NCBI RefSeq assembly: GCF_001294535.1 | Contig: NZ_LGIC01000020.1 | Location: 1 to 64,000, forward strand | Length of the DNA: 64,000 nucleotides | Reading direction: 5' to 3' | DNA from: Cypionkella psychrotolerans | GTDB taxonomy: Bacteria > Pseudomonadota > Alphaproteobacteria > Rhodobacterales > Rhodobacteraceae | In this document: in pieces, positions 39,699 through 62,886 of the stretch | Position numbering within the stretch: the stretch's first letter is position 1 | How the letters are laid out: each line of letters begins with the position of its first letter | Translations under genes and position numbers: made by a program | Notes under the pieces: model-generated | Seen by the model: only the letters and a program-made list of their open reading frames with translations | Told to the model about the DNA's origin: nothing | Database searches by the model: none

Positions 39699-39712
39699 CT
39701 TGCGCAGATCAG
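39699..39712. promoter_or_regulatory. CTNRCGCARATCAG box before the phosphoketolase operon
   Basis: CTTGCGCAGATCAG, followed by CG as in three related sites (44908, 49496, 62639). It ends 34 bp before ATG 39665. The ATCAG half is perfect and the left half degenerate. Confidence 0.5.
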
Positions 39713-39774
39713 CGATCGCGTCGCGCTGATGTCGATCATCCCGGTTGTAAGTAACAGCGCGGCTGGGCTGAGCA

Positions 39775-42336
39775 TCATGTGGCAACCGCGCTGGTGGAGG
39801 CGGCGGGTGAGGGCGGCTTGGCGCCCTGGCCAATCCCTGCGAGCTTGGTGCGCTTCAACAAAAGGGCGTTGATGGCCACAATCAATGTGCTGCCGGACAT
39901 CGACAGTGCTGCAACCTCGGGGCTGAGCACAAACGGATAGAGCACACCCGCCGCGAGCGGGAAAGCGACGACGTTGTAGCCTACGGCCCACCAAAGGTTC
40001 TGGTGCATCTTGCGCACCGTCGCACGCGACAGTTCTATCGCGCCGACGATGTCATAGGGGTCGCTTTTCATCAGCACGACATCGGCGCTTTCCATCGCGA
40101 CATCGGTGCCCGCACCGATCGCAAAGCCAACGTCCGCCTGGGTCAGGGCCGGGGCATCATTGACACCGTCACCCACCATCCCGACCTTCTTACCTGCCGC
40201 CTGCAACGCCTTTACCTTTTCGGCCTTCTGGCTCGGCAAAACGTCGGCCAGCACGGTGTCGATGCCAAGGTCGGCCGCGATGCGTTTGGCCGTCATAGCG
40301 TTGTCGCCGGTCAGCATCACCACTTCGATCTTGCGCTCGCGCAGCTTGGCGATGGCGGCCTTTGAGGTCGGCCGGATCGCATCGGCGATGGCAATCAGTC
40401 CTATGACCACACCAGCCTGCGACACATGGACCACGGTGCGACCGTCGCCTTGCAGGCGTGTGGCTTCGGCCTCTAGGCGACCCAGCACAAGATTTTGCGT
40501 ATCCATTAGCAGCCGGTTGCCAAGGTAGACCGTTCCAGCGGCTGTCTCGGCCCGTGCGCCCCTGCCATCAAGGCTTTCAAATTCCGTGGATGGCGCAACC
40601 GTAAGGTGGGCTGACCGGCGCAGGATCGCCTGAGCGAGCGGATGGTCGGACCCCTGCTCGACGGCTGCGGCGGCGGTCAGCAGCACGTCTTCGGTCACAC
40701 CGTCAGCCGGCACGATCTCTACCACTTCCGGCTGACCGACGGTCAGAGTTCCAGTCTTGTCAAATACGATGGTATCAAGCTTGGTCGCGTCTTCCAACGC
40801 CGACGCATTCTTGAACAGAATGCCGTTCGTGGCGCCAAGTCCTGTGCTGATCATCACAGCCATCGGCGTGGCAAGGCCAAGGGCGTCGGGGCAAGCGATC
40901 ACAAAGACGGTGATCGTAAACGTGACAGCCAGCAACAGCGACTCGCCCACCACCCAGAACCACACGCCGAACGTGACCAACCCGATCACGATCGCGGCGA
41001 TCACCAACCATTGCGCAGCCCGGTCAGCCAAAAGCTGCGCCGGGGCCTTGGAATTTTGCGCCTCCTGCACCAACTTCACGATCTGAGCGAGGGCTGAGTC
41101 GGCACCGACCTTAGTGGCCTTATAGCGGAAACTGCCGCTTTTGTTGATCGTCGCGCCGATAACGGTGGCACCTGGACCCTTCTGCACCGGCATAGACTCG
41201 CCGGTCAGCATGGATTCGTCGACCAGTGAGTCGCCGTCCTCGATGACGCCGTCGACCGGTATTTTGCCGCCGGGTCGCATCACCACAATCTCGCCCTCCA
41301 GCACCTCGGCGGTCGGAATTTCGACCTCGGTGCCGTTGCGGATGACCTTGGCCGTTGTTGGCGTGAGGTTCATCAACGCCTTGATCGCAGAGGAAGCGCC
41401 TGCCCGGGCCCGCATTTCCAGCCAATGACCCAGCAGAATGAACACCAGCAGGACGGCGACAGCTTCGTAAAACTGCCCACCGCCTTTGAAAAAGAATGTG
41501 CTGCCAACACTGAACAGATAGCCGGTGCCGACGCTGAGAACGATCAGCACTGCCATGCCAAGCTTGCCCACTTTCAACGCACGCCAGGCAGAGACGACGA
41601 ATGGCCAGCTAGGGTAAAGGATCGCGGCACTGGCAAAAAAGAACAGCCAAAAATTGAGGTCTAACCCGAACGGCGGGGCTGGCGGCGTGAAAAAGTTCCC
41701 CATCGGAGCGTAGACGAAGATCGGAATTGTGAAGATCAGGCAGATCCAGAACCGGTTGCGCATATCGCGCACCATGGCCGACATATCATCGCTGCCGTGA
41801 CCCATCTCGAAGGCCATATCAGCAGATTTGCCTGACGTCCCGTGGACAGCGTGCGCTGGTGCGTCCGGCGGAGCAGGTGCTGCAGTTTCGGGATCATCAG
41901 CGGGCGGTGCCGAAGGCATTGCGCCCGCTGGGTTGGCAGCCTTTTCGCCGACCGGTGGCGGCACGACATCAGGTGCCCCGGCAGCCGTGGACGGATCAGG
42001 GGGGCCAGTTGGTACCGTGATTGCTTCCCGCGTAACATCTTGAGCTTCAGTCGGTGCAACCGTTCCTGCATCGGGCTGTTCCGACCCATTGCCATCTTCT
42101 TGGCCTTCGCCCGGCGCGGCGCCATCAGGCGTGCTGGCTTCATATTCGTTTTGGCGCACGTTGGATTTGATGTCAGCAACATGGAGACGGGTTTCATCAA
42201 AGCGGACCGTGGCGCTTCCGGCGGCAAAATTCACCGTCACGCTTTCCACACCGGGAACAGCCCCAATCCGCTTTTCCAGGCCCGCAACACTCAGCACCGA
42301 CAGCATATCGTGCACATCAATAACGCTGGTTTTCAT
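39775..42336 (-). CDS. P1B-type ATPase with CPD membrane motif and Cys-less HMA domain
   Basis: 853 residues. Residues 1-70 form an HMA-like fold ([20 protein letters not shown] ... [18 protein letters not shown]) that has no CxxC. A Pro/Ala/Glu-rich linker of about 110 residues follows, then a short His/Met section ([23 protein letters not shown]). The core is complete: [17 protein letters not shown] and [20 protein letters not shown]. The transport helix reads [13 protein letters not shown], so the metal site is CPD (482-484), not CPC, CPH, SPC or TPC. Otherwise it is closest to CopB-like pumps. Substrate unknown. Confidence 0.88.
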
Positions 42337-42479
42337 TGTGTGCTTACCATGTCATCCGCCGATCTGAAAAAGTCTGATTGAACACGCGTTTTCGCGTATC
42401 ACGTGTTCGCCGAATTTTATTTCGCCCCGACGCCCATGTCGCAACTCAGAGCCCCCAAGCTGCTCTTGCCAAGACGTTT

Positions 42480-42863
42480 TCACGCAGTCATCTTGTGCTT
42501 GATGGCAGTTTCGGCGCCGTCATTTTCGTCGTCTCGGGTCATTTCGCACGCTGCGACCGCGTTCGCTGCGCCTGCGCGCCAGCACCAGCCGGTCGGAAGA
42601 AATTGGTCAGTCTGTGCCGCGATATCCCGCGATGGCCGGAACGACACGTCCAGCCCGGACTCCACCTGCATCATATCATCGGGCAGCGGCTGGAAGTCAC
42701 CGGTTAGCGCGTCGTGCATATGCGGCATGAAAATGCCAAGCTCATATGCAGACAATCGGCGTAGCATATCCTGCACCTCGGGTAGATGGATTGCAGCCTG
42801 CGCTCTTCTGAGCGCCTCCGGAAATCTGCGGGCATCTTGTTGTGAAACATTTTGCGCTATCAT
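42480..42863 (-). CDS. Conserved hypothetical protein
   Basis: 127 residues; aggagatctcc directly precedes ATG 42863. Soluble, no signal. Segments such as LPEVQDMLRRLSAYELGIFM, PHMHDALTGDFQPLPDDMMQ and ESGLDVSFRP look well conserved (His-Met-His and acidic residues could bind a metal), but no domain name is known to me. It lies between the CPD ATPase and its stand-alone HMA-like relative on the same strand, suggesting shared regulation. Confidence 0.7.
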   Translation of the reverse strand: MIAQNVSQQDARRFPEALRRAQAAIHLPEVQDMLRRLSAYELGIFMPHMHDALTGDFQPLPDDMMQVESGLDVSFRPSRDIAAQTDQFLPTGWCWRAGAANAVAACEMTRDDENDGAETAIKHKMTA

Positions 42864-42926
42864 GGAGATCTCCTGTTGAGTTTGTCTGACCCGAGTTGAA
42901 CCATCGGGCCCGGTGAAAGGCGAATT

Positions 42927-43412
42927 TCAGGGCTTGCCCTTGCTCATTCCCGACTTGTCCACGTCCTTTTTCTCCGCAGCATCGTCAGCGGCAGAGGGGA
43001 CCGGCTTGTCTGAAGCGGATGCATCCCCTGCGACCGGCGACGGTTTTGCAGCACTGGGTGCTGGCGCAGGTTTGGCCGGGGCGACCGGCTCTAGTTTGCC
43101 CGATTGCCCTACGCTTGCAGGCGAGGTGACGGGTGTCGGGCGTTCAGGCGATTTATCCGCGGCTGCGTGGTCTTCATGGTGGCCAGCCGACGAATTGGCA
43201 CCACCCATGGCAGGTTCATACTCACCTTGCCGCACGGCTGACTTGATATCGGTGACGTTCAACCGGGTCTCGTCGTAGCGCACCGTGGCAAGACCAGCAG
43301 CATAGTTCACGGTCACACTTTCGACACCCGGCACCTCGCCGATCCGGTTTTCGACTCCAACCACGCTCAGCACCGAAAGCATATCCCGGACTTCAATATC
43401 ACTCGTTTTCAT
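42927..43412 (-). CDS. Stand-alone Cys-less HMA-like protein with Pro/Ala-rich tail
   Basis: 161 residues from ATG 43412 (a GTG one codon upstream is equally possible; gggag lies 8 bp before). Residues 1-66 ([20 protein letters not shown] ... ATVRYDETRLNVTDIKSAVR) are near identical to the N-terminal domain of the CPD ATPase and also lack CxxC. The rest is low-complexity P, A, S, K, D with HHEDHAAAD. It looks like a duplicated N-terminal domain released as a separate protein, perhaps a partner or regulator of the pump. Confidence 0.75.
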   Translation of the reverse strand: MKTSDIEVRDMLSVLSVVGVENRIGEVPGVESVTVNYAAGLATVRYDETRLNVTDIKSAVRQGEYEPAMGGANSSAGHHEDHAAADKSPERPTPVTSPASVGQSGKLEPVAPAKPAPAPSAAKPSPVAGDASASDKPVPSAADDAAEKKDVDKSGMSKGKP

Positions 43413-43564
43413 CACAACGCTCCCTGATGGATTTGATTGTCAAACTGATCGGCTTGTGACGCAGGTTGCTCTGCGGGGTGTTGCCGCATGACCGGCCGAA
43501 TTCACCGACGGTTGAGTCGGCCCGGCTTACAGCGGTGGTGACGATGCCCGGGACGGTGCGTGGG

Positions 43565-43852
43565 TCACACAGGCCGCCGCACCGAGTTTCCGCCCGAGAT
43601 GATCTTGTTTATCAGGCCTGCAACGGCCTGATGCATGGCCCGGTCAACGTTCGGACCGACCGCGTTTTCGTGCGCAGTGGCGGCGTCGCGCAGGATCCCG
43701 ACGATCTCGTGTTCGGGAAGAAGATCACGGTCGTTCATTGCCAACAGCAAAGCCTCGACGATCGACAGCGCCGCGATTCCGCTGTGATCCGTCAGGTCGG
43801 GTTTTGCCGCGTGGTTGTTGGAGTCGGGCATTGCAGAGTGGTCGTTTTTCAA
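43565..43852 (-). CDS. Small GGNSVRRP-tailed protein, paralogue 1
   Basis: 95 residues from TTG 43852, chosen because gggag sits 8 bp upstream; an ATG 7 codons later is possible. Largely helical: IAALSIVEALLLAMNDRDLL, PEHEIVGILRDAATAHENAV and MHQAVAGLINKIISGGNSV, then RRPV. A second gene (61950-62231) encodes the same protein with about half its residues conserved and the same GGNSVRRP ending. Both are divergent to a Crp/Fnr gene. No family name known. Confidence 0.75.
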   Translation of the reverse strand: MKNDHSAMPDSNNHAAKPDLTDHSGIAALSIVEALLLAMNDRDLLPEHEIVGILRDAATAHENAVGPNVDRAMHQAVAGLINKIISGGNSVRRPV

Positions 43853-43923
43853 GATTTCAACTCCCAGAAGGTGAAAGAATCTGATTTATTTTCAGAGTCT
43901 GTAGGAAAGCATGCTATGCTGCA

Positions 43924-43937
43924 CTGATCTAAAGCAG
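43924..43937. promoter_or_regulatory. CTGAT-N4-ATCAG-type box between paralogue 1 and Crp/Fnr 1
   Basis: CTGATCTAAAGCAG, about 70 bp from both divergent starts (43852 and 44006). The second divergent pair has CTGATCTAAAGTAG in the same place, a 13 of 14 match. Confidence 0.7.
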
Positions 43938-44005
43938 TCCGTGGCACGGGCCGGTGGCCTAATTCCTTCCAATATCTGTCGGCCGCTGCTAATCGAAAGA
44001 GACTT

Positions 44006-44740
44006 ATGCTTGCTCTAGAAACATGCCCTCTCGTCCGCAAACTTGGGGCTTTCATGGCTCTGACTGACGACGAGTCTGTGGTTCTGGACCGTCTGCATCA
44101 ACTCCGACGCCGCTTCGTTGCCGGGAAGGATCTGGTGTATCAGGGGCAGGCCGAACAATCCGCCTATATCCTGTGTGCGGGGTGGGTCTGTTCCTACAAG
44201 CTTCAGCCCAACGGGTCGCGCCAGATCGCGGATTTTCAGATTCCGGGGGATTTTCTGGGCTTGCGCAGTATCCTGTTGCGCACTTCGGACCACAGCTTTG
44301 AACCCATTGTCGACATCATGGCGGCCGAGGTCCACCAGAGCGACCTTCTCGACGCGTTTGCGCGAACCCCGCGACTTGCCGCAGCCGTGCTCTGGGCGGC
44401 GTCGCGCGACGAGGCGATGGTGGTCGAGCATCTGGTCGGGGTCGGACGCCGCGACGCCGAAGTCCGCGTGGCGCATTTCTTGCTGGAACTCAGTGCTAGG
44501 CTGGCGCTGGTCGGGCTGGGGACCAAGGCGGGCTATGCCTGTCCCCTGTCGCAATACCACCTTGCCGATGCGCTTGGGCTAAGTTCAGTACACGTCAACC
44601 GCGTCCTGCGGAAACTGCGCGAACAGGGGTTGGCGACGTTCCAGAACGGTTACGTCACGTTCGACGACCATGAGGGTTTGGTGGCGCTAGCCGAGTTCGA
44701 TCCGGCCTATCTGGATCAGACCGGGCCGCTGCTGGCCTGA
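44006..44740 (+). CDS. Crp/Fnr family regulator 1
   Basis: 244 residues. Cyclic-nucleotide-like beta roll (GKDLVYQGQAEQSAYILCAG, SRQIADFQIPGDFLGLRSIL), long dimer helix, and C-terminal helix-turn-helix LADALGLSSVHVNRVLRKLR. The recognition helix reads V-H-V-N-R where Fnr has E-T-I-S-R, so target bases should differ. There is no N-terminal Cys cluster (only Cys7), so an Fnr-like 4Fe-4S sensor is unlikely. Length and alignment with regulator 2 support ATG 44006. Confidence 0.9.
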   Translation: MLALETCPLVRKLGAFMALTDDESVVLDRLHQLRRRFVAGKDLVYQGQAEQSAYILCAGWVCSYKLQPNGSRQIADFQIPGDFLGLRSILLRTSDHSFEPIVDIMAAEVHQSDLLDAFARTPRLAAAVLWAASRDEAMVVEHLVGVGRRDAEVRVAHFLLELSARLALVGLGTKAGYACPLSQYHLADALGLSSVHVNRVLRKLREQGLATFQNGYVTFDDHEGLVALAEFDPAYLDQTGPLLA

Positions 44741-44833
44741 GTGGGCCTGATGCGGTCAACCACTGCGTCGGTTTTGCGTGTCGCCAACAATCATCAGCAC
44801 GAAAACAAAGATCAGCATCGCGCCAGGCAAGAC

Positions 44834-44857
44834 GCCCGGCGCTTACGGGCTCTTTTT
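44834..44857 (+). terminator. Terminator downstream of Crp/Fnr 1
   Basis: GCCCG, loop gcgctta, CGGGC, then TCTTTTT. The 5-bp stem is short, but the T tail is good. Confidence 0.55.
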
Positions 44858-44907
44858 GACCGTCCGTCTTCCTACCGGAACGGATCCCCCGAATTTTACG
44901 CACCGGG

Positions 44908-44921
44908 CTGACGCAGATCAG
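44908..44921. promoter_or_regulatory. CTGAC-GCAG-ATCAG box upstream of the PRC-barrel gene
   Basis: CTGACGCAGATCAG followed by CG, 142 bp before ATG 45064, in a 323-bp region with no gene. One mismatch from the ideal palindrome. Confidence 0.6.
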
Positions 44922-45063
44922 CGCGTCACAGGCCGCGAAGGCGCATGATGGCTTCTTTGGCGCATGTGCGCAGCCGCCCGTTCGGGCCCAGCAGACCCAC
45001 CAAAGCCACCATGTTGGCGACGGACCTGCCGGTTGAGGCTTACCAACCAAAAGGAGTTTCGAT

Positions 45064-45864
45064 ATGCGGCTCAACCTGTCGTCGATCCGGGAGTATGACA
45101 TCGCGGCCAGCGACGGCACCATCGGCGCTGTCAGCGATGTCCTTTTCGATGACACCAGCTGGATGATCCGCTGGTTGGTAGTGGATACCGGAACATGGCT
45201 GTCAGGCCGCAAGGTGCTGTTGCCACCTGCAGCATTGGGTCATGCCGATGCCAATACCCAGACATTTTCGGTGCGCCTGACCAGGGCAGAGGTCGAGGCC
45301 AGCCCCGCATTGGACAGCCACCGGCCGGTGTCGCGCCAATTCGAAGCGTCCACTTATGACCATTATGCGTGGAATCCGTATTGGGGCGCGGGCTTTGATC
45401 TTGGCGGAACGGGCATGACGAGCGGTGCCCTGTCGATGACCGGAGATCCCGAGGCGCCCAGCCGCACTGATGAACGCGACCGGCTTCAGAAGGATATGGA
45501 CGAGCCGCATTTGCGCAGCGTTGAAGAAGTTACCGGCTATCATATCCACGCCACCGATGGAGAGATCGGACATCTGTCCGACCTGATCGTTCAGGATACC
45601 GACTGGAGCATCCGTTTTCTGATCGTGGATACCAGTAACTGGTGGATGGGCCAAAAGGTGCTGATCTCGCCCCGTTCGGCCAGAGAGATCCGCTGGGCCG
45701 AACGGTTGATCGATCTCGACGTTGACCGCCAAAAGATCATGGGCAGCCCGCCTTACGATCCGGACCACCCGATTGACCGTGCCTACGCGGACCGGATGGC
45801 CGCGCACTTTGCCACGCCCCGATCCGAACCGGACGGAACCGCCGCAGACAGCTCGACAAAGTGA
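45064..45864 (+). CDS. Double PRC-barrel domain protein
   Basis: 266 residues. Two PRC-barrel units: residues ~1-60 (SSIREYDIAASDGTIGAVSD, RWLVVDTGTWLSGRKVLLPP) and ~155-215 (EEVTGYHIHATDGEIGHLSD, RFLIVDTSNWWMGQKVLISP). The linker is acidic and aromatic. PRC barrels occur in photosynthetic reaction centre H and RimM and mediate protein or RNA contacts. Stand-alone double copies are found in stress loci. Its stop overlaps the next gene's GTG start (GTGA). Confidence 0.88.
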   Translation: MRLNLSSIREYDIAASDGTIGAVSDVLFDDTSWMIRWLVVDTGTWLSGRKVLLPPAALGHADANTQTFSVRLTRAEVEASPALDSHRPVSRQFEASTYDHYAWNPYWGAGFDLGGTGMTSGALSMTGDPEAPSRTDERDRLQKDMDEPHLRSVEEVTGYHIHATDGEIGHLSDLIVQDTDWSIRFLIVDTSNWWMGQKVLISPRSAREIRWAERLIDLDVDRQKIMGSPPYDPDHPIDRAYADRMAAHFATPRSEPDGTAADSSTK

Positions 45865-46344
45865 CCCTCTCGGCAGCCTTTGGTGGGCAAAGCCCGCAGT
45901 TCGACGCCTTCCTGTTCGCGCCGGTGGGCGAGGACCGCAATGGCATTATGATCAGCGTATTGTCAACAATGGCGATTTGGCGTCGATCCCTGGACAGAGG
46001 TTGAAACGCTTGCCGGTCTGCCGCAGACGGCGGCAGCCGACCGGCTGGACGCGCTGATCCTGACACTCGGGGATGTGCCATCCGCGCTTGCGGACCATCA
46101 CGATATCGCTTCACGGCTGATCGCGCTGCTGCCGCAGAAAGGCAGGATCCAGACCACCCTGCACAACGCGACCGGCGGTGCGGCGCCGGACGAGCGTGCG
46201 CAGGTCATCCTGTAGAGCGTGGCCGTCTTGGCCATTCTGTTCGGGCAGGCGATGGCACTACGACCTAACGCTGGCGCATCAGACGATACCGCACTAGGCG
46301 CAGCCTCTGCATCCGTGGCAGGACCGGACACCTTTTCACGCTGA
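45861..46344 (+). pseudogene. Conserved hypothetical gene, frameshift plus premature stop
   Basis: Starts GTG 45861, coupled to the PRC-barrel gene. Frame one: FLFAPVGEDRNGIMISVLST, breaking near 45972. Frame two: FGVDPWTEVETLAGLPQTAA, RLDALILTLGDVPSALADHH, IASRLIALLPQKG and a TAG at 46213. After the TAG the same frame continues with a membrane-like VAVLAILFGQAMAL and stops at 46342. I recognise the pattern (SVLSxxARxxxDPW ... L) from small alphaproteobacterial proteins with no known function. Confidence 0.6.
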
Positions 46345-46438
46345 ACCCTTGGCAGATTCTGTGCCGGTCGCGCCAGGGCCCAAAGACTGAACAACGCGCC
46401 GTGCAGACGATAAAGCAAGCCCGCGAACTTCGGGATGG

Positions 46439-46452
46439 CTGATCTGTATCAG
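46439..46452. promoter_or_regulatory. Perfect CTGAT-N4-ATCAG palindrome upstream of the alcohol dehydrogenase
   Basis: CTGATCTGTATCAG, a flawless inverted repeat, 193 bp before ATG 46646, in a region without an intact gene. Confidence 0.65.
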
Positions 46453-46645
46453 GGCGGAGGGGCAGAACCGCAGGTATTACCATAGCAGTGGGTCCGAAAA
46501 TCTGAACTGCCGGGATACGTTGATCTTGCGCGCCAGGACGGCATGATGCCGCGGCTTATCCAGTCTGCCAGCCGGGCGCTGCGATCCAACGCATACTGGG
46601 CGAGGTGGCTTTCGCAAAGTACATCCAACAAATGAGGATACCGCA

Positions 46646-47686
46646 ATGAAAGCGCTCGTTTATTCCAAATCCGGCAAAATCGCTCTGGAAGACCGCCCCA
46701 AGCCAGAGATCACCGCCCCGGGCGATGCCATCGTGCGCATCGTCCATACCACGATCTGCGGCACCGATCTGCATATCCTGAAGGGCGACGTGCCCACCGC
46801 CACGCCGGGCCGTGTCCTTGGGCACGAAGGCGTCGGCGTGATCGACAGCGTCGGTGCGGCAGTAACGTCGTTCAAGAAAGGCGATCATGTGCTGATCTCC
46901 TGCGTCAGCGCTTGCGGCACCTGTTCGTTCTGCCGCAAGCAGATGTATTCGCATTGCATCCACGGCGGCTGGATCCTTGGCAATGCGATCGACGGCACCC
47001 AGGCCGAGTTCGTGCGCACGCCCTTTGCCGATATGAGCCTTTACCACATCCCCAAAGGCGCCGACGAAGAGGCACTGGTGATGCTCAGCGACATCCTACC
47101 CACCGGGTTCGAATGCGGTGTGCTGAATGGCAAGGTGGAACCGGGATCGACGGTGGCCATCGTCGGGGCGGGGCCTGTGGGTCTTGCTGCCTTGTTGACA
47201 GCGCAGTTCTATTCACCAAGCGCGATCATCATGATCGACATCGACGATAACCGTCTGAAGATCGCCAAGACATTCGGCGCGACGGATGTGATCAACAGCG
47301 CCGATGGCAAGGCCACCGCAGCGGTGATGAAACTGACCGACAAGGCCGGCGTCGATACCGTGATCGAGGCGGTGGGCATCCCGGCCACTTTCGAGCTGTG
47401 CCAGCAGATCGTCGCGGCGGGCGGCACCATCGCCAACATCGGTGTGCATGGCAAACCGGCCGATCTGCATCTGGAAAAGCTGTGGGACCGCAACATCGCG
47501 ATCACCACGCGGCTGGTCGATACCGCGACGATCCCGATGCTGTTCAAGACGACGGCCGCAAAGACAATCGACCCGGCGCTTTTGATCTCGCACCGCTTTA
47601 CGCTGGCCGAAGGCGAAAAGGCTTACGAGACATTCGGCAATGCCGCCAAGACCAAGGCGCTGAAAGTGATCATCAGCCCGGCCTGA
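46646..47686 (+). CDS. Zinc-dependent alcohol dehydrogenase (MDR family)
   Basis: 346 residues. Catalytic zinc ligands: TICGTDLHI and GHEGVGVI; structural zinc loop CGTCSFCRKQMYSHC. Rossmann fold: VAIVGAGPVGLAALLTAQFY and IMIDIDDNRLKIAKTFGATD. Sequence pattern is that of the zinc ADH/threonine-dehydrogenase-like group acting on small alcohols or formaldehyde-related substrates; exact substrate open. It could reoxidise NADH by reducing acetaldehyde, which would suit a fermentative module, but that is inference. Confidence 0.93.
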   Translation: MKALVYSKSGKIALEDRPKPEITAPGDAIVRIVHTTICGTDLHILKGDVPTATPGRVLGHEGVGVIDSVGAAVTSFKKGDHVLISCVSACGTCSFCRKQMYSHCIHGGWILGNAIDGTQAEFVRTPFADMSLYHIPKGADEEALVMLSDILPTGFECGVLNGKVEPGSTVAIVGAGPVGLAALLTAQFYSPSAIIMIDIDDNRLKIAKTFGATDVINSADGKATAAVMKLTDKAGVDTVIEAVGIPATFELCQQIVAAGGTIANIGVHGKPADLHLEKLWDRNIAITTRLVDTATIPMLFKTTAAKTIDPALLISHRFTLAEGEKAYETFGNAAKTKALKVIISPA

Positions 47687-47821
47687 CGGCTGGTTGATAT
47701 GAAACAAGGCGGGGGTGTCGTGGCATAGTAGTCTAAACCCGCAAACAGCAAAGTGTCAGGGCCGCCCGCCAGCGGCCCGGCGCCTGTCATATCAGTGCAA
47801 TCCAGATCAGGAGTTTCCAAC

Positions 47822-48124
47822 ATGGACCCTAAATCATCATTCCTTCGCATGTATCCAGTGGGCATGGCGCTCGGCATTCTGCTTGCTTTCAGCTTTGCCT
47901 TTTGCGTCGTCTTCGGGCTGCTGTTCCCGACTGCCAAGATGTATCAGGCTTGGCTGCCGTTGTTGCCTGGCGTGACTTGGATAACCTGGCCCACCGCCTT
48001 GCTCGGGCTGGTGGAGGCATTTGCCTACGGCTGGTACATCGCGGTCATTTTCGTTCCGATCTTCAACCTCTTTGCGAGGAAGGCAAGCGAGGAAAAAGTC
48101 TCAGCCCGCTCGCCGGCCGAATGA
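47822..48124 (+). CDS. DUF5676 family membrane protein
   Basis: 100 residues from ATG 47822 (caggag upstream). Two membrane spans: GMALGILLAFSFAFCVVFGL and GLVEAFAYGWYIAVIFVPIF, with AKMYQAWLPLLPGVTWITWP between. This matches the small DUF5676 family; function unknown, frequently near metal or stress genes. Confidence 0.78.
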   Translation: MDPKSSFLRMYPVGMALGILLAFSFAFCVVFGLLFPTAKMYQAWLPLLPGVTWITWPTALLGLVEAFAYGWYIAVIFVPIFNLFARKASEEKVSARSPAE

Positions 48125-48219
48125 CAGACCAGTACAATCATGTGATCACGCCGACAGCCCGCCTCGTTTTGCCTTTCGATCCGGTCAACTCATCCGATCC
48201 AATCCAGGAATTTCCAACA

Positions 48220-48309
48220 TGAACGACACGTCAGGCCTTATTCTCGTCACCGGCTCGAACGGGCGGATCGGGAGCGCGATCATGCCGCGCCTGACCGGCA
48301 AGTACGTCA
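48220..48309 (+). pseudogene. N-terminal stub of an NAD-dependent epimerase/dehydratase
   Basis: MNDTSGLILVTGSNGRIGSA and IMPRLTGKY match the start of the epimerase at 63985 (-) almost exactly, including the preceding leader (caggaatttccaac versus caggagttaccaat). Homology stops at about 48309, where the 3' end of the galU remnant begins on the other strand; the downstream open frame is antisense galU. This is a deletion junction. Confidence 0.75.
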
Positions 48310-49227
48310 AAGTGCGTGCAGGGCAGGTTCAAGAAACAATCCGACGGTATCCAGACTTTGGATTTTGCTGTTTCTCTCGGGCCCCTCTGAGCGTGCGATG
48401 GACGGCTGGGCGTTCATCCGACCTAACTTGATCGCCACCTGACGCGCGATCGAGGCCGCAAGCAAACCATCATGGGACCCGCAGTCGTATCGAGTGCCGG
48501 AAAACCGGAACGCGTTCAGCGGCACGGATCGGGTCGCAACTGCAATGGCGTCGGTCAACTGTAAGCTCGCCCCCGGGGCCTTTCGGCGTGTGGTCCAGAA
48601 CGTCGAAGATCATCGGCTGCAGAATATAGCGTCCGACGGCGGCGAGCGACGAAGGTGCGGTGCCCAAAGGCGGTTTTTCCACCATGCCGCCGACCGGAAT
48701 ACACATTTCTGTCGCGGAACCGCCGGGGGCGAATATCCCGTATCGGCTTGTTTCATGATCCGGCACCGTCATCGCTGCAATCATATGCCCGTAACGATAA
48801 TGTTCCGCCATCTCGGCCAGAGCGCCACGGTCCATGATGATATCGTCCGGCAGAATGACCCCGAACGGTCCCGGCAGGTCAGTCCCCTGCAGAGCAGAAT
48901 TGCATGGCTAAGGCCCATCGGCGCAGCTTGGTTTACATACACGATCTCGGGGCCTGCCTGTGCAGCCCCTAGCCGACTCGCCGCCTCCTCGATCGATGGG
49001 TAGGCCACGTGGCCAAGAAATTCGCAGATTGCAGGCTTCTTGTCACTGACGACGACGATGATCCGTTCGGCTCCCGCCTCGATGGCCTCGTCGATGGCGA
49101 ACTGGATGACCGAACTGTCATAGATCGGCAAAAGCTCTTTCGCCGTTACCTGCGTTGCGGGCAGCATGCGCTTACCCTTGCCAGCAGCAGGAATGATGAC
49201 TGTTCTGATGGTTTTGATTGGCTGCAT
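48307..49227 (-). pseudogene. galU: UTP-glucose-1-phosphate uridylyltransferase, frameshifted
   Basis: Start MQPIKTIRTVIIPAAGKGKR (ATG 49227), with TxxxxKELLPIYDSSVIQFA and VSDKKPAICEFLGH. A shift near 48870 after ILLCRG moves to MDRGALAEMAEHYRYGHMIA, FAPGGSATEMCIPVGGMVEK and IFDVLDHTPKGPGGE. A second shift near 48555 gives TDAIAVATRSVPLNAFRFSG, TRYDCGSHDGLLAAS. Normal galU makes UDP-glucose from glucose 1-phosphate, the first step of glucan synthesis. All catalytic elements are recognisable but in three frames. Confidence 0.85.
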
Positions 49228-49311
49228 CACCCTCACGGTGGACAGTTCCGATAAGATGCCGCAGTCCTTCGGAATGAATTCAGCCGGTCGGCGCGCCACC
49301 TTCGTGAACAA

Positions 49312-49831
49312 TTGTATTTGAAGGTCATATCAACGAGGTAGTTTTTGACGGGCGAAGCGATGAAGCGTTTGACGACGCTACGAAGACGGCTTTTCGCTTG
49401 CCCTCCGTGATGCGGCGGCGTACTTATTCGACTCCGCGCCGATCAGTTGCTGCACAAACTTGGGCAAACACTAGGCCGCATACGATCCCTGTCAGCTAAC
49501 GCAAATCAGCGACATCGACTTTTATCTTGTGACAGACTTCGGCGGCAGATCTCGTGGTCCAACAGCCGATAACCGTGCGTTGCTGCACGAGGTGGGTCGA
49601 ATTGGTAGCCACTGTTGCGTTGGTGGCGAACCAGAATGCTTTGAGCCCCAGCCATGGGGGATCGGGATCAACGTCCTGGCTTGCCCACAGCGTCCGGTGG
49701 AGGACCGCCCTAATTTATCTTTCCAGAAGCTAACATCGGGCAGTCACCGACCGCGACACAAGTCGTATGGCGGTGTCATCTGCGAAAGAGAGCGCAAGCG
49801 ACTGCGCCCAACCGATTAGAAGGAGGCTGTC
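49312..49831. other. Intergenic region before gnd
   Basis: 520 bp between the galU remnant and gnd. The open frames here lack starts, ribosome sites or motifs. The only clear element is a Crp/Fnr-like box at 49496. The gnd ribosome site (agaaggaggctgtc) is at the right end. Confidence 0.5.
49496..49509. promoter_or_regulatory. CTAAC-GCAA-ATCAG box upstream of the gnd operon
   Basis: CTAACGCAAATCAG followed by CG, matching 12 of 14 positions of the site at 44908. It is 322 bp before gnd and 268 bp before the galU remnant, so a long leader or a distal promoter would be needed. Confidence 0.5.
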
Positions 49832-51304: not shown

Positions 51305-51382
51305 CCGCCCGCGGTGTTCACACCGCGGACACCCGGCACTACCGGGGGCTTCCGCGTCAAGAATGGCGCGACGGAGAATACT

Positions 51383-53493: not shown

Positions 53494-53529
53494 GCCGGGT
53501 GGACACGGACCCAACGATGGAGGCGCAGC

Positions 53530-55206: not shown

Positions 55207-55266
55207 AAGAGGTGTGCAACGCAGCGGCGTCGCGCATTCAGTCGAAGCCATCACCGGAGGAACACC

Positions 55267-58200: not shown

Positions 58201-59217
58201 GGCACGCACGGCCTGCCGCTAATCCAGACCGGCGACTGGAACGATGGCATGAACAGCGTCGGCGAAAAGGGTCGCGGCGAAAGCAGTTGGCTGGCGTGGC
58301 ATTTGTTGGCCGCCATTGCGGCGTTCGCGCCCTGTGCCGACCAGCGCGGCGATACCGAACGCAGCCGACGCTGGCGCGACTACGCCGCCGACATGCGCTT
58401 GGCCCTAGAACAGGCGTGGGACGGTGAATGGTATCGCCGGGGCTATTACGACAACGGCGCCCCACTGGGCTCGCACGAAAGCGACGAATGCCAGATCGAC
58501 AGCATCGCCCAATCGTGGAGCGTGCTTGCAGGTGCTGCAAACCCGCAACATGGCGCACAGGCGATGGGATCGGTTGATCGCCTGCTGGTCGACCATCGGC
58601 ACAAGGTCGCCAAACTATTCACCCCGCCGTTTGACGGCGGCGCGCAAAACCCAGGCTACATCAAAGGCTATCCGCCGGGCATCCGCGAAAATGGCGGCCA
58701 ATACACGCATGGCGCGACCTGGTCGGTCTTTGCCTGGGCCAAACTCGGTGACGGCGATCGTGCAGGTGCGATGTTCGATCTGCTCAACCCGATCCACCAC
58801 AGCGACAGTGCCGACGCCGTGGCACGCTACAAGGTGGAACCCTACGCCGCCTGCGCCGATGTCTATTCAGTCGCGCCGCACGTCGGTCGCGGTGGCTGGA
58901 CCTGGTACACAGGTTCCGCCGCGTGGTTGTATCGCGCCGGGCTCGAAGCGGTGCTTGGCTTTCAGTTGCTCGGCGATCGGCTGCTCATCGATCCGTGCAT
59001 CCCGAAATCCTGGCCCGGCTTTCAGATCACCTATCAGCGGCGCGGGCTTCAGCATGCCGTCACCCGATACGTCATAACGGTGGAAAACCCGGACCATGTC
59101 TGCCACGGTGTCACTCGCTTGGAACTCGACGGTAAGGTCATCGCCGCCACAGGCGGGATTGCTCTGGCGGATGATGGCAAGACCCATGCCCTACGCGTCG
59201 TACTTGGCGAAACCTGA
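55267..59217 (+). CDS. NdvB-like GH94 phosphorylase (beta-1,2-glucan type), no synthase domain
   Basis: 1316 residues. Two related beta-sandwich halves: LLLRDEDSGAVWSATRQPMG near residue 85 and LYLRDEDSGEVWSATALPIR near 590. The (alpha/alpha)6 catalytic barrel follows: YGFRDQLQDVMALCISRPDL, HWWLPPAGQGIRTRIADDRV, LIQTGDWNDGMNSVGEKGRG (general acid Asp, about residue 989), ESDECQIDSIAQSWSV and YKVEPYAACADVYS. This equals the C-terminal half of cyclic beta-1,2-glucan synthases, but the GT84 synthase and membrane domains are absent, so phosphorolysis to glucose 1-phosphate is likely. Cytoplasmic (no signal). Confidence 0.9.
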   Translation: MSDQTPASDVKAANVSTDANGIDALTGPIHSSADASRQHCLLSNGTYSVMLSNSGSGFSRWRDLSVTRWREDATRDCWGSYLLLRDEDSGAVWSATRQPMGAATPDIVVNFSPGLARFVRRDDTLDSTLEIAVAGDADIELRRLTLRNHGDKQRTLSVTSYSELVVGPAGPDNAHPAFSKMFVQTEWDARLGVLLATRRQRADDEPAIWAAQAMQIEGQPTDRAHEYETDRARFLGRCHTLRDAQAMQPGAALSNTTGYVLDPIFSLRKSITLTSGASIRLLLWTQLADTREGALALTAQLDNANAAGKLFAGAAGFAMAEQARLDIDAQQAAGFAQWLSAVLISDPRQRAPADVLARGRGGPPTLWAAGISGDRPIVLLRLDNPAELSRVQDLLLAQSDWRSKRLGVDVVLLNTATGTAGDVLHSTLESLVKAQEALLNADTTAVKAELIVLRDDAISDDLRDGLLTQARVVLGNNDHSDTGPVAAPITGEAMCASTPAQAASASDGPLEFSNGSGGFSDAGRAYHIHLDDDSCTPAPWINVIANPAFGFIVSAEGGGYTWSINSQQNPITPWPNDPISDMPHETLYLRDEDSGEVWSATALPIRVPGATYQITHGKGFSRFINDAHGIALELTMCVPTADPVKLSRLRLCNRSTDTRHLSITGYVEWALGANGTTPGPFVITSSDEQTGALFARNPWRSDFGRRVAFADLAGQQQSMTGNRGEFLGPFGAIDRPAALQDNTPLSGRLGAGLDPCGALQTRIELPPNTQIDLVFLLGDAATEAEAQKLVVKYRAADMEWVLGDVAAQWNGLLDVVQVRTPDRAMDIMLNDWLLYQVLSSRVWARTAYYQASGAYGFRDQLQDVMALCISRPDLAREHLLRAAGRQFAEGDVQHWWLPPAGQGIRTRIADDRVWLAYVAMHYVDVTGDAAVLDAALPFLTGQTIPDGATDAFFQPGESDQTVSVYEHCARALDSSLTSGTHGLPLIQTGDWNDGMNSVGEKGRGESSWLAWHLLAAIAAFAPCADQRGDTERSRRWRDYAADMRLALEQAWDGEWYRRGYYDNGAPLGSHESDECQIDSIAQSWSVLAGAANPQHGAQAMGSVDRLLVDHRHKVAKLFTPPFDGGAQNPGYIKGYPPGIRENGGQYTHGATWSVFAWAKLGDGDRAGAMFDLLNPIHHSDSADAVARYKVEPYAACADVYSVAPHVGRGGWTWYTGSAAWLYRAGLEAVLGFQLLGDRLLIDPCIPKSWPGFQITYQRRGLQHAVTRYVITVENPDHVCHGVTRLELDGKVIAATGGIALADDGKTHALRVVLGET

Positions 59218-59374
59218 AAAGGCGCAGTTCAGCGTGAGCTACGCGGTTGCACCGGTGACGCTGAGAGCTAATTATTTAAGGCGAGAACATGATCGAACCG
59301 AAAGACACGCTTAGTGACCCGCTGTCAGCACACACCTTCACGGAGAGATTCGCGTCGATGTCGGCAGAGGAAGA

Positions 59375-60676
59375 ATGAGTCGCATGATCCGGCCATCTCT
59401 GGATGATGACCTGCTGGAGGGGATCCAGCGGGATACGTTTGCATACCTCATGGACCAGGTGAACCCCAGCAACGGACTGGTACGGGACCGGACCGGAGAA
59501 GGCGCACCGTCCAGCATTGCGGTCGTGGGCTTCGCGCTGGCGGCGTACCCGGTAGGGGTCGAACGTGGATTCTGGTCGCGTGCCGACGCCGTCGCACTGA
59601 CGCTGACGACACTGCGATTTTTCTGGAACAGCCCGCAGGGAACCGAACCGGACGCGACTGGCTACAAAGGGTTCTACTACCACTTTCTGGATATGCAGAC
59701 CGGGCGGCGGGTGTGGGAGTGCGAATTGTCGACCGTCGACACGACGTTTCTGATCGCTGGGATGCTCACCGCCGCGGCTTATTTTGACCAAGAGTTTGTG
59801 GAAGAGATCGAGATCAGAACGCTCGCCGATGCACTTTACCGGCGGGTCGACTGGCGGTGGGCACAGAACGGCAAGGCCACCGTCACTCATGGGTGGAAGC
59901 CAAAAAGCGGTTTTCTGAAATACCGTTGGGAAGGCTATGACGAGGCGCTGCTTCTCTATGTGCTGGGCCTCGGCTCACCCACATTTCCGTTGCCCGAAGA
60001 AAGCTACGCCGCATGGACGTCGACCTATGACTGGACGACGATCTATGACCGCGAATTCCTCTACGCTGGCCCTTTGTTCATCCATCAATTCTCGCATCTG
60101 TGGATCGACTTTCGCGGTATTCAGGACGCGTACATGCGCGACAAGGGGATCGACTATTTCGAGAACAGCAGGCGGGCGACCTACGTGCAGCAGGAATACG
60201 CGGTGCGCAACCCGCATGGTTTCAAGGGGTATGGCAAACTGGCCTGGGGCCTGACTGCCAGCGACGGCCCCGGACCGGGATCGCGCCGGACCGACGGCAA
60301 AAAGCGCAGCTTTTTCGGATACAAGGCGCGCGGCGTGCCCTACGGGCCTGATGATGGGACACTCGCCCCGTGGGGGATTATCGCCTCGTTGCCATTCGCA
60401 CCCGAAATCGCCCTCCCAGCGATCCGGCATTGTCAGGACGTATATCCGCAGACCCGAACCTCCTACGGCTTCGTCGGCAGCTTCAATCCGACCTACCCGT
60501 CTCGAACTGGGGATGCAGTGGGTTGGGTCTGCGAGGAGCATTTTGCGCTCAATCAGGGGCCCAATATCTCGATGATCGAAAACTACCGTTCGGGTTTAGT
60601 CTGGCGGCTGATGCGGGATTGCCCTTATATCGTTGCGGGACTGCGGCGGGCCGGGTTCACGAATGGCTGGCTTTGA
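59375..60676 (+). CDS. GH144-like glucoamylase-domain protein (probable endo-beta-1,2-glucanase)
   Basis: 433 residues, all within the glucoamylase-like (PF10091-type) fold. Signatures: FAYLMDQVNPSNGLVRDRTG, SSIAVVGFALAAYPVGVERG, GFYYHFLDMQTGRRVWECEL, STVDTTFLIAGML, YDEALLLYVLGLGSPTFP and NQGPNISMIENYRSGLVWRL. Characterised members (GH144) are endo-beta-1,2-glucanases, mostly periplasmic; this one has no signal peptide, so it should act in the cytoplasm. Next to an NdvB-like phosphorylase, a beta-1,2-glucan substrate is the best guess. Confidence 0.87.
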   Translation: MSRMIRPSLDDDLLEGIQRDTFAYLMDQVNPSNGLVRDRTGEGAPSSIAVVGFALAAYPVGVERGFWSRADAVALTLTTLRFFWNSPQGTEPDATGYKGFYYHFLDMQTGRRVWECELSTVDTTFLIAGMLTAAAYFDQEFVEEIEIRTLADALYRRVDWRWAQNGKATVTHGWKPKSGFLKYRWEGYDEALLLYVLGLGSPTFPLPEESYAAWTSTYDWTTIYDREFLYAGPLFIHQFSHLWIDFRGIQDAYMRDKGIDYFENSRRATYVQQEYAVRNPHGFKGYGKLAWGLTASDGPGPGSRRTDGKKRSFFGYKARGVPYGPDDGTLAPWGIIASLPFAPEIALPAIRHCQDVYPQTRTSYGFVGSFNPTYPSRTGDAVGWVCEEHFALNQGPNISMIENYRSGLVWRLMRDCPYIVAGLRRAGFTNGWL

Positions 60677-61034
60677 GCGGCCTTTCGAGACTGAGGAGCC
60701 GCAGCTGGAGCGAGTTTGGCGTGTTTGGGCGCATCTGCGTGGAACCCGCCAAGGGTGGCGGTGCGAGCGGAGTTCTGACCAAAGTTTCAGTCAACTTTGT
60801 AACCCACATACGAAGCCCAGCCGATGCTTCGGCCCTATCGGCGAAAACTAAAGCGCCAATTTTCTAACTACCTGACAAGGGGCGTCATTTCGACTGTCCA
60901 ACTCCACCGTCCGTCTCTGCCAAAAGTGACGTAGAATGGATGCAGCCAAGAAACTCTGATCCATATAGCAAGCCAAATTCCGCAGCCGAAACTGGCGAGC
61001 AACGCCAAACCACATACCGCTCGGCAGCCGTCAA
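60677..61034. other. Gene-free stretch between convergent GH144 and Crp/Fnr 2
   Basis: 358 bp with only short overlapping frames. No clear terminator or regulator box; one half-site (CTGAT at 60956) has no matching partner. Confidence 0.5.
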
Positions 61035-61766
61035 CTACCGCAGTAACGGGCCGTAGTCATCCAGATAGGTGCGGTCGAAGTCGGCTACATCCACCAACTT
61101 TTCGAAGTCGTGAATCGTCACCTTGCCTTTCTGAAATGTCAGCAAGCCCTCCTCACGCAACTCACGCAGCACTCGGTTCACATGCACAGCACTAAGGCCA
61201 AGAGCGTCGGCCAGCATGTATTGCGACAACGGGCAGGCGTAACCTTCGACCGTGCCAAGACCAACCAGCTTCAACCGTGCACTGAGTTCAAGGAAGAAAT
61301 GTGCCGTTCGCTCCAGCGCGCTGCGCCGCCCGATGCTGACCAGATGCTCAACCACCATCGCCTCATCGCGCGATGCCGCCCAAAGAACTGCCGTTGCCAA
61401 GCGGGGGGACGAGGCAAAAGCATCAATCAGGTCGCTCGCCAAGACCTCTGACGCCGTAACCGGGGTAATCGGCTCTATATTGTGGTCAGCGGTGTGGAAC
61501 AGAACCGATCGCAAACCCAGAAAGTCGCCCGGAATCTGGAAGTCCACGATCTGGCGTTTGCCATCCCGCATCAGTTTGTAAGAACACACCCAACCGTCCG
61601 AGAGGATATAAGCCGCCTGATCAGTCTGACCTTGGTGCATCAAGTCGCGGCCAGCAACAAAGTTGCGTCGTCGTCGGTGCAAATCGTCAAGCGTTTTCAA
61701 CTCTGCGCTCGACAAGACAACAAAGCTGCCCAATTTGCGGGTCAACGGGCTTTGGACACTTTGCAT
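61035..61766 (-). CDS. Crp/Fnr family regulator 2
   Basis: 243 residues, alignable end to end with regulator 1 (e.g. RQIVDFQIPGDFLGLRSVLF; TAVLWAASRDEAMVVEHLVS; YACPLSQYMLADALGLSAVH). The recognition helix SAVHVNRVLRELREEGL has the same V-H-V-N-R contacts, so both should read the same DNA site. It has no N-terminal Cys cluster. Divergent from paralogue 2 of the GGNSVRRP protein, as regulator 1 is from paralogue 1. Confidence 0.9.
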   Translation of the reverse strand: MQSVQSPLTRKLGSFVVLSSAELKTLDDLHRRRRNFVAGRDLMHQGQTDQAAYILSDGWVCSYKLMRDGKRQIVDFQIPGDFLGLRSVLFHTADHNIEPITPVTASEVLASDLIDAFASSPRLATAVLWAASRDEAMVVEHLVSIGRRSALERTAHFFLELSARLKLVGLGTVEGYACPLSQYMLADALGLSAVHVNRVLRELREEGLLTFQKGKVTIHDFEKLVDVADFDRTYLDDYGPLLR

Positions 61767-61840
61767 TTGACCGCCTTTCGCCGCGTTGCCTGACCTCAGG
61801 GTCTTGAATCAACGTTTGTCAGGCTTTGCAGACAGCAACG

Positions 61841-61854
61841 CTACTTTAGATCAG
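61841..61854. promoter_or_regulatory. CTGAT-type box between Crp/Fnr 2 and paralogue 2
   Basis: On minus: CTGATCTAAAGTAG, differing from the 43924 site by one base. It is 75 bp before the regulator start (61766) and 96 bp before the paralogue start (61950). Confidence 0.7.
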
Positions 61855-61949
61855 TTTTTAGTACCACAAACCTGCGACAGTAGCGATGATTGCTGAAACA
61901 AGGTGGGCGGGCATACTGCGCGTAGCCACGTCATCGCGAGGTTCCCACC

Positions 61950-62231
61950 ATGTCCGGTCCAGAGCACCTGCCAAAGTCAAAGGCTCCCATTGTCGCACCG
62001 CCCCCGGCAGATGTTGCAGCCGCAGCTGCGCTTGCCATCTGCGAATCGCTGCTGCTGGCGCTGAATGATCACAAGATCCTGCCAGAGCGCGAGATCTTAG
62101 GCGTTCTGCGCGACGCGGCTGCCGCCCACAATTACGACCCTGGAGACGATGGGCAGACCGAATTGCACGAAGCGGTCGCAACTTTGATCCACAAGATCAT
62201 CGAAGGCGGTAATTCGGTGCGACGACCTTAA
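61950..62231 (+). CDS. Small GGNSVRRP-tailed protein, paralogue 2
   Basis: 93 residues; gaggttcccacc precedes ATG 61950. A Pro-rich start (HLPKSKAPIVAPPPADVAAA) leads into the same helical core as paralogue 1: CESLLLALNDHKILPEREIL, GVLRDAAAAHNYDPG, LHEAVATLIHKIIEGGNSV, then RRP. No signal or metal motif. Function unknown; the conserved partnership with a Crp/Fnr regulator suggests a regulatory or sensing role. Confidence 0.78.
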   Translation: MSGPEHLPKSKAPIVAPPPADVAAAAALAICESLLLALNDHKILPEREILGVLRDAAAAHNYDPGDDGQTELHEAVATLIHKIIEGGNSVRRP

Positions 62232-62886
62232 CTTGTTCGAGGTGATCTCTGCCATTTGCGACACGGAACGTGCTGCCGGGAAGGGCCTGAGTCCAAACCA
62301 GTTCAATGCCCCGTCAGCCGCCCGCAGTTGAGGCTGCTCCTCCTCCGCTTGCTCGTCGCTGACCCGAGATAAGTCGGCCTGATAAAGATGAAGCTGCGCA
62401 GAAGTGCACGCAAAACACGGAAATCATCCCGGAAGAGTTTGGACATTCTCTTCTGGCCGGCTGAATGTCGCTTGACGCTAGTGCCGGTGCGCCGATATCA
62501 CAGCAGCGTCGATCGGCTAGAGCTTTTCAGACTGCCGAAACTAGATTTCAAGCCAAATGCGGCGCTGATTTTCTTGAGTCAATTCTAGCGGCTGGCCCTG
62601 CGCCGTATCGAAAAAAATCACCGCGCCGAACGGCCCCGCTGATCTGCGTTAGCGACGCAGCGGAGAGCTACCGCTAGGGTAATGTATCTGCTGAAAGATC
62701 TTTGGCGAACAACCTTTATTCGGACAGCGCCGACACGCAGTGCCAGCAAACGACAGTCAGCTTCAGGGCACTTTCGTTACAGACAGTGCGTTGGCAGTCC
62801 TGTGAACATGTCGTACAGCTCACTGGCACTGGGCGTCTCTTCTATCATCGGGTTCTGCCAAAATCCGAGCTTTGGGGGCAACGACC
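62232..62886. other. Largely gene-free stretch
   Basis: 655 bp. Several overlapping short frames on plus, none with a ribosome site or motif. A Crp/Fnr-like box sits at 62639. Confidence 0.5.
62639..62652. promoter_or_regulatory. CTGAT-CTGC-GTTAG box
   Basis: CTGATCTGCGTTAG; on minus this is CTAACGCAGATCAG followed by CG, 13 of 14 identical to 44908. It lies 235 bp before the small ORF at 62887. Confidence 0.55.

Follow-up and report, generated by a model that had tools for sequence, protein, structure and literature searches.

A C...G-type operator in two promoter geometries predicted for an uncharacterised Crp/Fnr subfamily of Cypionkella psychrotolerans and related bacteria

The window analysed here, a stretch of 64,000 nucleotides from Cypionkella psychrotolerans (positions 1 to 64,000 of contig NZ_LGIC01000020.1, called C20 below; parent genome 5.08 Mb), carries two genes for Crp/Fnr regulators, REG1 and REG2, together with a series of short palindromes that resemble CTGAT-N4-ATCAG and stand near a PRC-barrel gene, an alcohol dehydrogenase gene, a galU-like fragment and a small gene divergent from REG2 (Table 1). 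An initial annotation had listed seven of these sites as operators of a regulon dedicated to the two regulators, and all seven sequences were found where it had placed them. We propose that the sites are probably operators of a distinct, uncharacterised Crp/Fnr subfamily, which would act in a dual mode and whose targets would lie mostly in gene islands carrying copies of the regulator. That these proteins bind the sites, repressing at some and activating at others, is what we infer from the sequence comparisons described below.

Table 1. Regulators, putative operators and candidate target genes in the window (scores of the operator matrix unless marked composite; distances of -10 hexamers in bases past the 16-base operator).
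Feature	Position	Strand	Remarks
Weak site (39699 of the initial annotation)	39698..39713	-	Before HAD-ackA-xfp; score 2.5; no -10 at 22
Second site before HAD, GATGATCGACATCAGC (CTGATGTCGATCAT at 39726)	39725..39740	-	Score 12.0; no -10 at 22
Putative autoregulatory operator of REG1, ACTGATCTAAAGCAGT	43923..43938	+	2 bp after TATGCT; form and place recur in other genomes
Crp/Fnr regulator 1 (REG1, 244 aa)	44006..44740	+	Helix S-S-V-H-V-N-R; Pfam HTH_Crp_2 8e-15, cNMP_binding
Putative target operator GCTGACGCAGATCAGC	44907..44922	+	CATGAT at 22 (one off TAnnnT); composite 17.5
PRC-barrel protein (266 aa)	45064..45864	+	Pfam PRC 1e-10; probable target
Putative target operator GCTGATCTGTATCAGG	46438..46453	+	TATTAC at 22 (one off TAnnnT); composite 21.9
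Zinc alcohol dehydrogenase (346 aa)	46646..47686	+	Pfam ADH_N, ADH_zinc_N; candidate target
galU-like nucleotidyltransferase fragment (176 aa open reading frame)	48781..49311	-	Pfam NTP_transferase 2e-9; downstream of 49495
Putative target operator GCTGATTTGCGTTAGC	49495..49510	-	TAGTGT at 22 (full TAnnnT); composite 18.6 minus, 8.5 plus
Crp/Fnr regulator 2 (REG2, 243 aa)	61035..61766	-	Helix S-A-V-H-V-N-R; Pfam; 69% identical to REG1
Putative autoregulatory operator of REG2, ACTGATCTAAAGTAGC	61840..61855	-	Score 17.4; 2 mismatches; no TAnnnT 2 bp upstream
Small protein (93 aa), divergent beside REG2	61950..62231	+	No Pfam family; conserved regulator neighbour
Putative target operator GCTGATCTGCGTTAGC	62638..62653	+	TAGGGT at 22 (full TAnnnT); composite 22.4, best in contig

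Both regulators score above the gathering thresholds of PF00027 and PF13545 and thus belong to the Crp/Fnr superfamily, and the V-H-V-N-R recognition helix that had been read in them was confirmed. A search for REG1 relatives returned 465 places, of which the best 80 serve as the regulator loci throughout; the closest relatives come from Seohaeicola, Defluviimonas, Paracoccus, Roseovarius and similar genera. Those from Paracoccus and Roseicitreum were seen to be placed in Rhodobacterales, an order to which we take Seohaeicola, Defluviimonas, Roseovarius and most other relatives' genera to belong, and the subfamily appears to occur mainly there. Over the 80 loci, the helix is spelled VHVNR 62 times, IHVNR 16 times and VHINR once (one locus could not be parsed). 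H196, N198 and R199 are invariant in 89/89 aligned relatives, and the residue before the histidine is V or I in all 79 parsed loci. The E-x-x-S-R helix of FNR/FnrL, FixK and DNR is absent from the REG1/REG2 family. Moreover, the set of four Fe-S cysteines of FNR/FnrL is lacking, with only Cys 61 and 178 in REG2 and Cys 7, 57, 62 and 179 in REG1. Cys62 and Cys179 of REG1 are kept as cysteine across the aligned family (84/89 and 89/89), and it is possible that they form a redox handle in a protein without the FNR-type set. The NCBIfam models for FNR, FixK and FnrL give 42.8 to 68.2 bits and thus stay far short of their cut-offs (228 for Fnr, 300 for FixK and FnrL), and the CRP model gives 19.7 and 21.7 bits against a cut-off of 266. 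The nearest solved structure by sequence is FixK2 (PDB 4i2o, E 3e-19).

The genome carries five copies of the regulator, namely REG1, REG2 and those on contigs C56, C86 and C88. REG1 and REG2 had been described as duplicated; REG1 is closer to regulators of other genera (73-77% identity) than to REG2, so that the two are better regarded as old paralogues than as recent duplicates. The fifth copy, in C88 (L188:8673-9398), contains two in-frame TGA codons, yet a perfect operator, CTGATGTTGATCAG, stands upstream of it.

The most constant position of the palindrome is the promoter of the regulator itself. Within 250 bp before the regulator gene, CTGAT-N4-ATCAG occurs with at most one mismatch in 77/80 loci and with at most two in 78/80; the three loci outside the 77 comprise one with only 87 upstream bases, one with a two-mismatch form and one without a site. 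The usual form is ACTGATC[CGT][AG][AG]AGCAGT, located about 60-95 bases 5' of the start, and 77 of the 79 loci with at least 120 bases upstream reach an operator score of at least 12. The outer C...G is kept in 77/80 of these regions, in place of the T...A of FNR and FixK boxes. All five copies in C. psychrotolerans have a site upstream with 0 to 2 mismatches, each in a different spelling (CTGATCTAAAGCAG, CTGATCTAAAGTAG, CTGATCTGTCTCAG on the opposite strand, CTAATCTGCATCAG and CTGATCAACATCAG, the last belonging to the copy with two stops). As operator consensus we propose ACTGATCTNNATCAGT, in which one of the halves may also read CTGAC or CTAAC.

The place of the operator within this promoter is also fixed in the relatives. 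In 56 of 62 unique regulator promoters a TAnnnT hexamer ends exactly 2 bp 5' of the 16-base operator, while any other gap accounts for at most 8 of the 62; the promoters are kin, and the count therefore overstates their independence. The same spacing is found at REG1 and at the C56 copy, in the latter within different sequence. An operator that starts 2 bp after the -10 hexamer would cover the transcription start, which is a repressor's position, and this arrangement points to a regulator that shuts off its own gene. Further upstream, about 16-30 bases before the operator and 5' of TATGCT, relatives share a strongly conserved block, ACTTCTCGCAGGAA (56/79 loci aligned); it is unlike a usual -35 element and is possibly the site of another activator or sigma factor.

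At the predicted targets, the spacing is a different one. The pattern was noticed at these promoters and counted afterwards, so that the test was unplanned; a grouped count and a subset from the own genome serve as safeguards. The set comprised intergenic sites from the own islands, four plasmid stretches and the 80 loci, each site taken in both directions and autoregulatory sites excluded. Among 195 oriented sites, TAnnnT starts exactly 22 bases past the 16-mer in 21, compared with a mean of 1.6 at distances outside 21-23. When sites with downstream sequences at least 55% alike are merged, 19/181 remain at 22 (mean elsewhere 1.42, maximum 5), and the islands of the own genome alone give 5/39, with any other distance reaching at most 2. 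Coding sites and background also have their highest value at 22 (11/730); 8 of these 11 come from relatives' loci, where the crude gene caller may mislabel promoters as coding. With the -10 hexamer 22 bases away, the centre of the operator would fall at -41.5, where Crp and Fnr bind as class II activators. For the target sites as a set, the -10 spacing strongly suggests such a class II position, at which a dimer would act as a class II Crp/Fnr activator, and suggests that the regulator turns on nearby stress and energy genes.

Counts of the bare motif contribute little to this picture. The window holds 54 copies of CTGAT-N4-ATCAG with up to two mismatches, where shuffled sequence gives 22.9, and most of these copies lie away from the reported sites; with one mismatch the motif is found at 272 places in the genome, so that raw counts cannot decide against chance. 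The extended core CTNRCGCARATCAGCG, which had been described as shared by four of the sites, indeed has four exact matches in the genome, all within this 23 kb, and 14 more places with one mismatch; CTNNYNYARATCAG, a pattern derived from the seven sites, has 29 genome matches, 7 of them here. Since both were drawn from the sites themselves, independent tests are needed. A reversed-pattern control was left out as unsuited to a GATC-rich palindrome. The pattern CTNRCGCARATCAG, present at least once in 134/248 family genomes, was rejected as mostly background.

We used an operator matrix trained solely on autoregulatory sites of other genomes, with 800 kb from 40 places of the same genome (16% of it) as background. 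At score 10, C20:29001-74706 yields 12.7 intergenic versus 0.78 coding matches per 10 kb, a 16-fold excess, compared with 1.90 versus 1.67 in the background. Without the two autoregulatory sites, 7 matches are left against 1.18 expected, a number reached by 0/200 Markov shuffles. The proposed comparison of coding with intergenic DNA thus gives a divided answer: the rates are about equal in the background, so that the motif fails as a genome-wide regulon, and there is an intergenic excess in the islands, which we read as a local regulon. Likewise, of the idea of a regulon dedicated to these regulators, the clustering of the C...G operator around them stands, while a scattered global regulon was not seen in the sampled 16% of the genome.

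A second, composite matrix combined the operator with a -10 hexamer at 22 bases (training words from other genomes, with no one-to-one pairing of the two halves). Across C20 as a whole, its 10 matches fall at 7 places, all intergenic, namely 62638(+), 46438(+), 49495(-), 64125, 44907 and 43923 on both strands, and 10096, which is a plain FNR-like box. Across the regulator islands (C20:29001-74706, C56, C88:122-140 kb and C86:430-448 kb) there are 15 intergenic matches, which represent 12 distinct sites in 15.0 kb, versus 3 in 89.5 kb of intergenic background (p 2e-8 for distinct sites; 1e-7 for 11 sites without REG1's own); the background also holds 13 coding matches. C86:430-448 kb has no composite match. 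Four plasmid stretches whose annotation supplies true gene borders contain 12 intergenic sites of score at least 12 in 30.7 kb, and the 7 that are not a regulator's own (2.3 per 10 kb) compare with 4 in 112 kb of coding DNA (0.36 per 10 kb). The composite pattern has 11 matches in 248 genomes, one of them the C56 DcuC promoter; this search had no spacing control and is not used as support.

Within the window, the predicted targets would be the PRC-barrel gene, the alcohol dehydrogenase, the galU-like remnant and a rightward transcript at 62.7 kb. The 44908 site stands before the PRC-barrel gene, as had been described. Beyond the window, a second PRC copy (C20:64323, 72% identical) is preceded by ACTGACACAGATCAAT (64125), which likewise has CATGAT at 22. 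The spelling GCTGACGCAGATCAG appears again in Roseicitreum (L213:14964, TATAAC at 22) and Rhodobacter sp. NTK016B (L130:2270), in both upstream of a small conserved gene, of which the window holds a broken relative after its PRC gene. This remnant (45864-46440) is frameshifted and belongs to no Pfam family; an intact version of the gene stands after the second PRC copy (L183:5131-5616), and relatives of it occur in 47/80 regulator loci. A second epimerase-PRC-small gene block extends over L183:3269-5616 (C20:63269-65616), at and past the window end, and a fragment resembling the start of the epimerase was seen by eye near 48220.

The 46439 site faces the alcohol dehydrogenase, the gene first assigned to it, from a distance of 192 bp. 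Neither the 4 family relatives of this gene nor its paralogue in the own genome is preceded by a site with at most one mismatch, though the paralogue has a weak site of score 10.8. The 49496 site had been assigned to the gnd side; by its composite scores, it instead faces the minus-strand galU-like fragment. This open reading frame spans only profile positions 3-90 of 245, so that the gene looks broken, and the promoter facing it still keeps operator and -10 spacing. The 62639 site faces right, with no gene nameable with confidence in the stretch ahead. A full TAnnnT at 22 occurs only at 49496 and 62639, the other two target sites being one base off.

The site at 39699 had been read as the operator of the HAD-ackA-xfp genes. 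It has the weakest score, and neither it nor the neighbouring site at 39726 has a -10 at 22, which makes control of these genes the least supported part of the proposal. At E 1e-25, a search of 247 other family genomes gave no relative of the HAD protein, and no intergenic site of the patterns used was found upstream of zwf, pgm or the GH94 gene. The small protein divergent from REG2 has relatives in 46/80 regulator loci (neighbour cluster 4; 47 loci counting the window), and there is no -10 at 22 bases on its side of 61840. At 10097-10110, a perfect FNR-type box, TTGATCTCGATCAA, stands upstream of two adjacent sigma-70-like genes (Sigma70_r2/r4) on the minus strand (9019-9960 and 8294-9016).

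Sister islands and other genomes extend the list of predicted targets. Beside the regulator copy in C56, the operator stands before a DcuC-type carrier with arginine deiminase behind it (TAGCCT at 22), before an ATP-synthase beta-type gene (TAGGTT at 22), before an unknown gene (TATAAT at 22) and before a calcium-type P-ATPase. In C88 it is found upstream of another DcuC-type gene and of a P-ATPase, in the neighbourhood of arginine deiminase and an 81% identical alcohol dehydrogenase. The DcuC-type carrier with arginine deiminase and the ATP-synthase beta-type gene would be targets in the sister islands. Plasmid pRA02 of Roseicitreum antarcticum has a perfect site before YfcC, arginine deiminase, argF, arcC and HdeD; farther on, that strand also carries ATP synthase genes. 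In Roseibium, the operator precedes a HisKA_2 kinase (domain tested in L141) and a small conserved gene, and such kinases and small conserved genes are the predicted targets in other genera. In relatives, sites are in excess before three conserved families of regulator neighbours (clusters 3, 5 and 40 with 5/47, 5/47 and 5/5, against 0.55, 0.4 and 0.05 in shuffles). Relatives of the PRC-barrel protein occur in 5/248 genomes, this one included. In one of them (G155), CTGTTCTGGATCAG, an intergenic site with one mismatch, lies about 580 bp 5' of the gene, two small open reading frames intervening; in the stretches from the other three, no site was found upstream of PRC. A Sulfitobacter plasmid with two PRC genes (L269) encodes a Crp/Fnr protein without the HVNR helix and has no CTGAT-type site with at most one mismatch.

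Several observations weigh against the proposal of a dual-mode regulator with its own operator. At the regulators' own promoters, REG2 and the copies in C86 and C88 lack TAnnnT 2 bp before the operator, and REG1 also has TAATTC at 22 bases, which makes positive autoregulation of REG1 possible. None of four examined regulators of 37-44% identity (from Azospirillum, Methylobacterium, Loktanella and Sinorhizobium, among 8 relatives under 60% identity) has a site with at most one mismatch at its own gene. Among the target sites, 39699 (2.5), 49496 (7.6) and 62639 (8.1) fall under score 10 with the operator matrix, 49496 and 62639 being recovered only by the composite matrix with its -10 box, and 39699 and 39726 do not fit the target geometry. 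The majority of oriented sites have no TAnnnT at 22, and the perfect Roseicitreum YfcC site is one of them. Wrong gaps of 17, 19, 24 and 26 give 4, 4, 5 and 7 intergenic matches in the islands versus 15, so that part of the composite signal comes from the operator alone. Regulator-neighbour clusters 1, 2, 6-12 and 14-19 show no excess of sites. Further, only 4 of 30 DcuC/YfcC genes (28 of 30 loci plus the C56 and C88 copies, from 35 matches) have a site with at most one mismatch, namely those of C56, C88, L239 and L240, and three of these four sites have a TTGAT half. With most neighbours and 26/30 DcuC/YfcC genes lacking a site, the target list appears to vary by genome. The comparison of related genomes suggested earlier thus supports the operator at the regulator's own promoter, which hardly varies, and not a rigidly conserved target set.

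The nearest characterised systems are those of FNR, FnrL and Anr, whose box is TTGAT-N4-ATCAA with T...A as outer bases (consensus for FNR/FixK from the accessible parts of PMC4999443 and PMC2908626). The system described here resembles them in its 10-base dyad with a 4-base spacer, in the class II target position suggested by spacing and in some low-oxygen energy genes among the predicted targets; it differs in the outer bases, in the recognition helix and in lacking the four-cysteine set. FixK, structurally the closest by sequence, is likewise a Crp/Fnr protein without Fe-S ligands, but keeps Glu and Arg in the helix and an FNR-like box (accessible part of PMC2908626), and its NCBIfam model gives REG1 and REG2 55.8 and 66.4 of 300 bits. 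The same part of that study (Dufour et al.) implicates E209, S212 and R213 of E. coli FNR in the recognition of DNA; for the groups outside FNR, FixK and DNR, the autoregulatory sites that it predicts from upstream sequences are similar but distinct. It is plausible that the V-H-V-N-R helix reads the outer T-to-C change of the operator. Many Crp/Fnr proteins of Alphaproteobacteria still await characterisation (PMC2908626). Alphaproteobacterial groups A, B, C and G, which share superfamily and host class with REG1 and REG2, are uncharacterised and have no described target regulon in the portion of Dufour et al. (2010, PMC2908626) available to us. The lxa locus of Burkholderia cenocepacia, a low-oxygen-induced stress island with six universal stress proteins, is similar in kind, and PRC-barrel relatives were found on Burkholderia replicons; there, however, Anr paralogues are named and a TTGATCTCGATCAA box is proposed at the cytochrome bd cluster (accessible part of PMC9104464).

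Could the sites instead be degenerate FnrL boxes, bound by the oxygen sensor FnrL and not by the local regulators? In Rhodobacter sphaeroides, FnrL chromatin immunoprecipitation peaks include CTGATgcagATCAA at nuo as well as TTGACgcagATCAA and TTGCGcaggATCAA (accessible part of PMC2908626); hybrid sites with T or A at one end exist in C88, L239 and L240, and the class II spacing would equal that of Fnr. Against this, the outer C and G are retained at the regulators' own promoters where the FNR/FixK consensus has T...A, and the sites cluster at copies of this regulator. We consider FnrL an unlikely owner of the sites, while cross-talk is likely, since FnrL can bind some sites with C at one end, such as that at nuo in the same source.

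That the proteins solely repress, with the island sites being remnants of shuffled regulator promoters or bystanders, appears quite improbable. Broken genes in the islands (the galU-like gene, the gene after PRC and the regulator copy with 2 stops) indicate that promoter pieces could be scattered; the exact 22-base -10 spacing in unrelated downstream sequences would be unexpected of such debris, and regulator promoters carry their hexamer upstream of the operator instead. Chance, with GATC-rich codons in a genome of 59% GC producing the motif incidentally, would accommodate the 272 one-mismatch matches and the nearly equal off-island matrix rates. It is refuted for the set as a whole by the local intergenic enrichment, the 77/80 orthologous promoters and the fixed spacings, which leaves it very improbable as a general explanation; single sites may still be due to chance, 39699 above all.

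The operator and the promoter rule are what is new here, the superfamily itself being already known. Among the titles and abstract openings listed in our literature search, none describes this operator, and Figure 2B of PMC2908626 may already show a similar own-promoter logo for one of its groups. Taken further, the regulator may have its own DNA code (C...G via the H-x-N-R helix) apart from FnrL, two operator geometries, and the role of a plasmid- or island-borne, self-limiting switch for energy-emergency genes, namely arginine deiminase, ATPase, alcohol dehydrogenase, PRC-barrel and small unknown proteins; to this fuller picture we give an even chance. A widespread uncharacterised subfamily would gain an exactly defined operator, a promoter rule with two geometries and a brief, testable list of targets. 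The rule would set the subfamily apart from FnrL, otherwise liable to be credited with these promoters, and points to unknown small proteins that move with the regulator. Moreover, the system would offer a natural test case for the way in which the recognition helix determines the outer base of a half-site.

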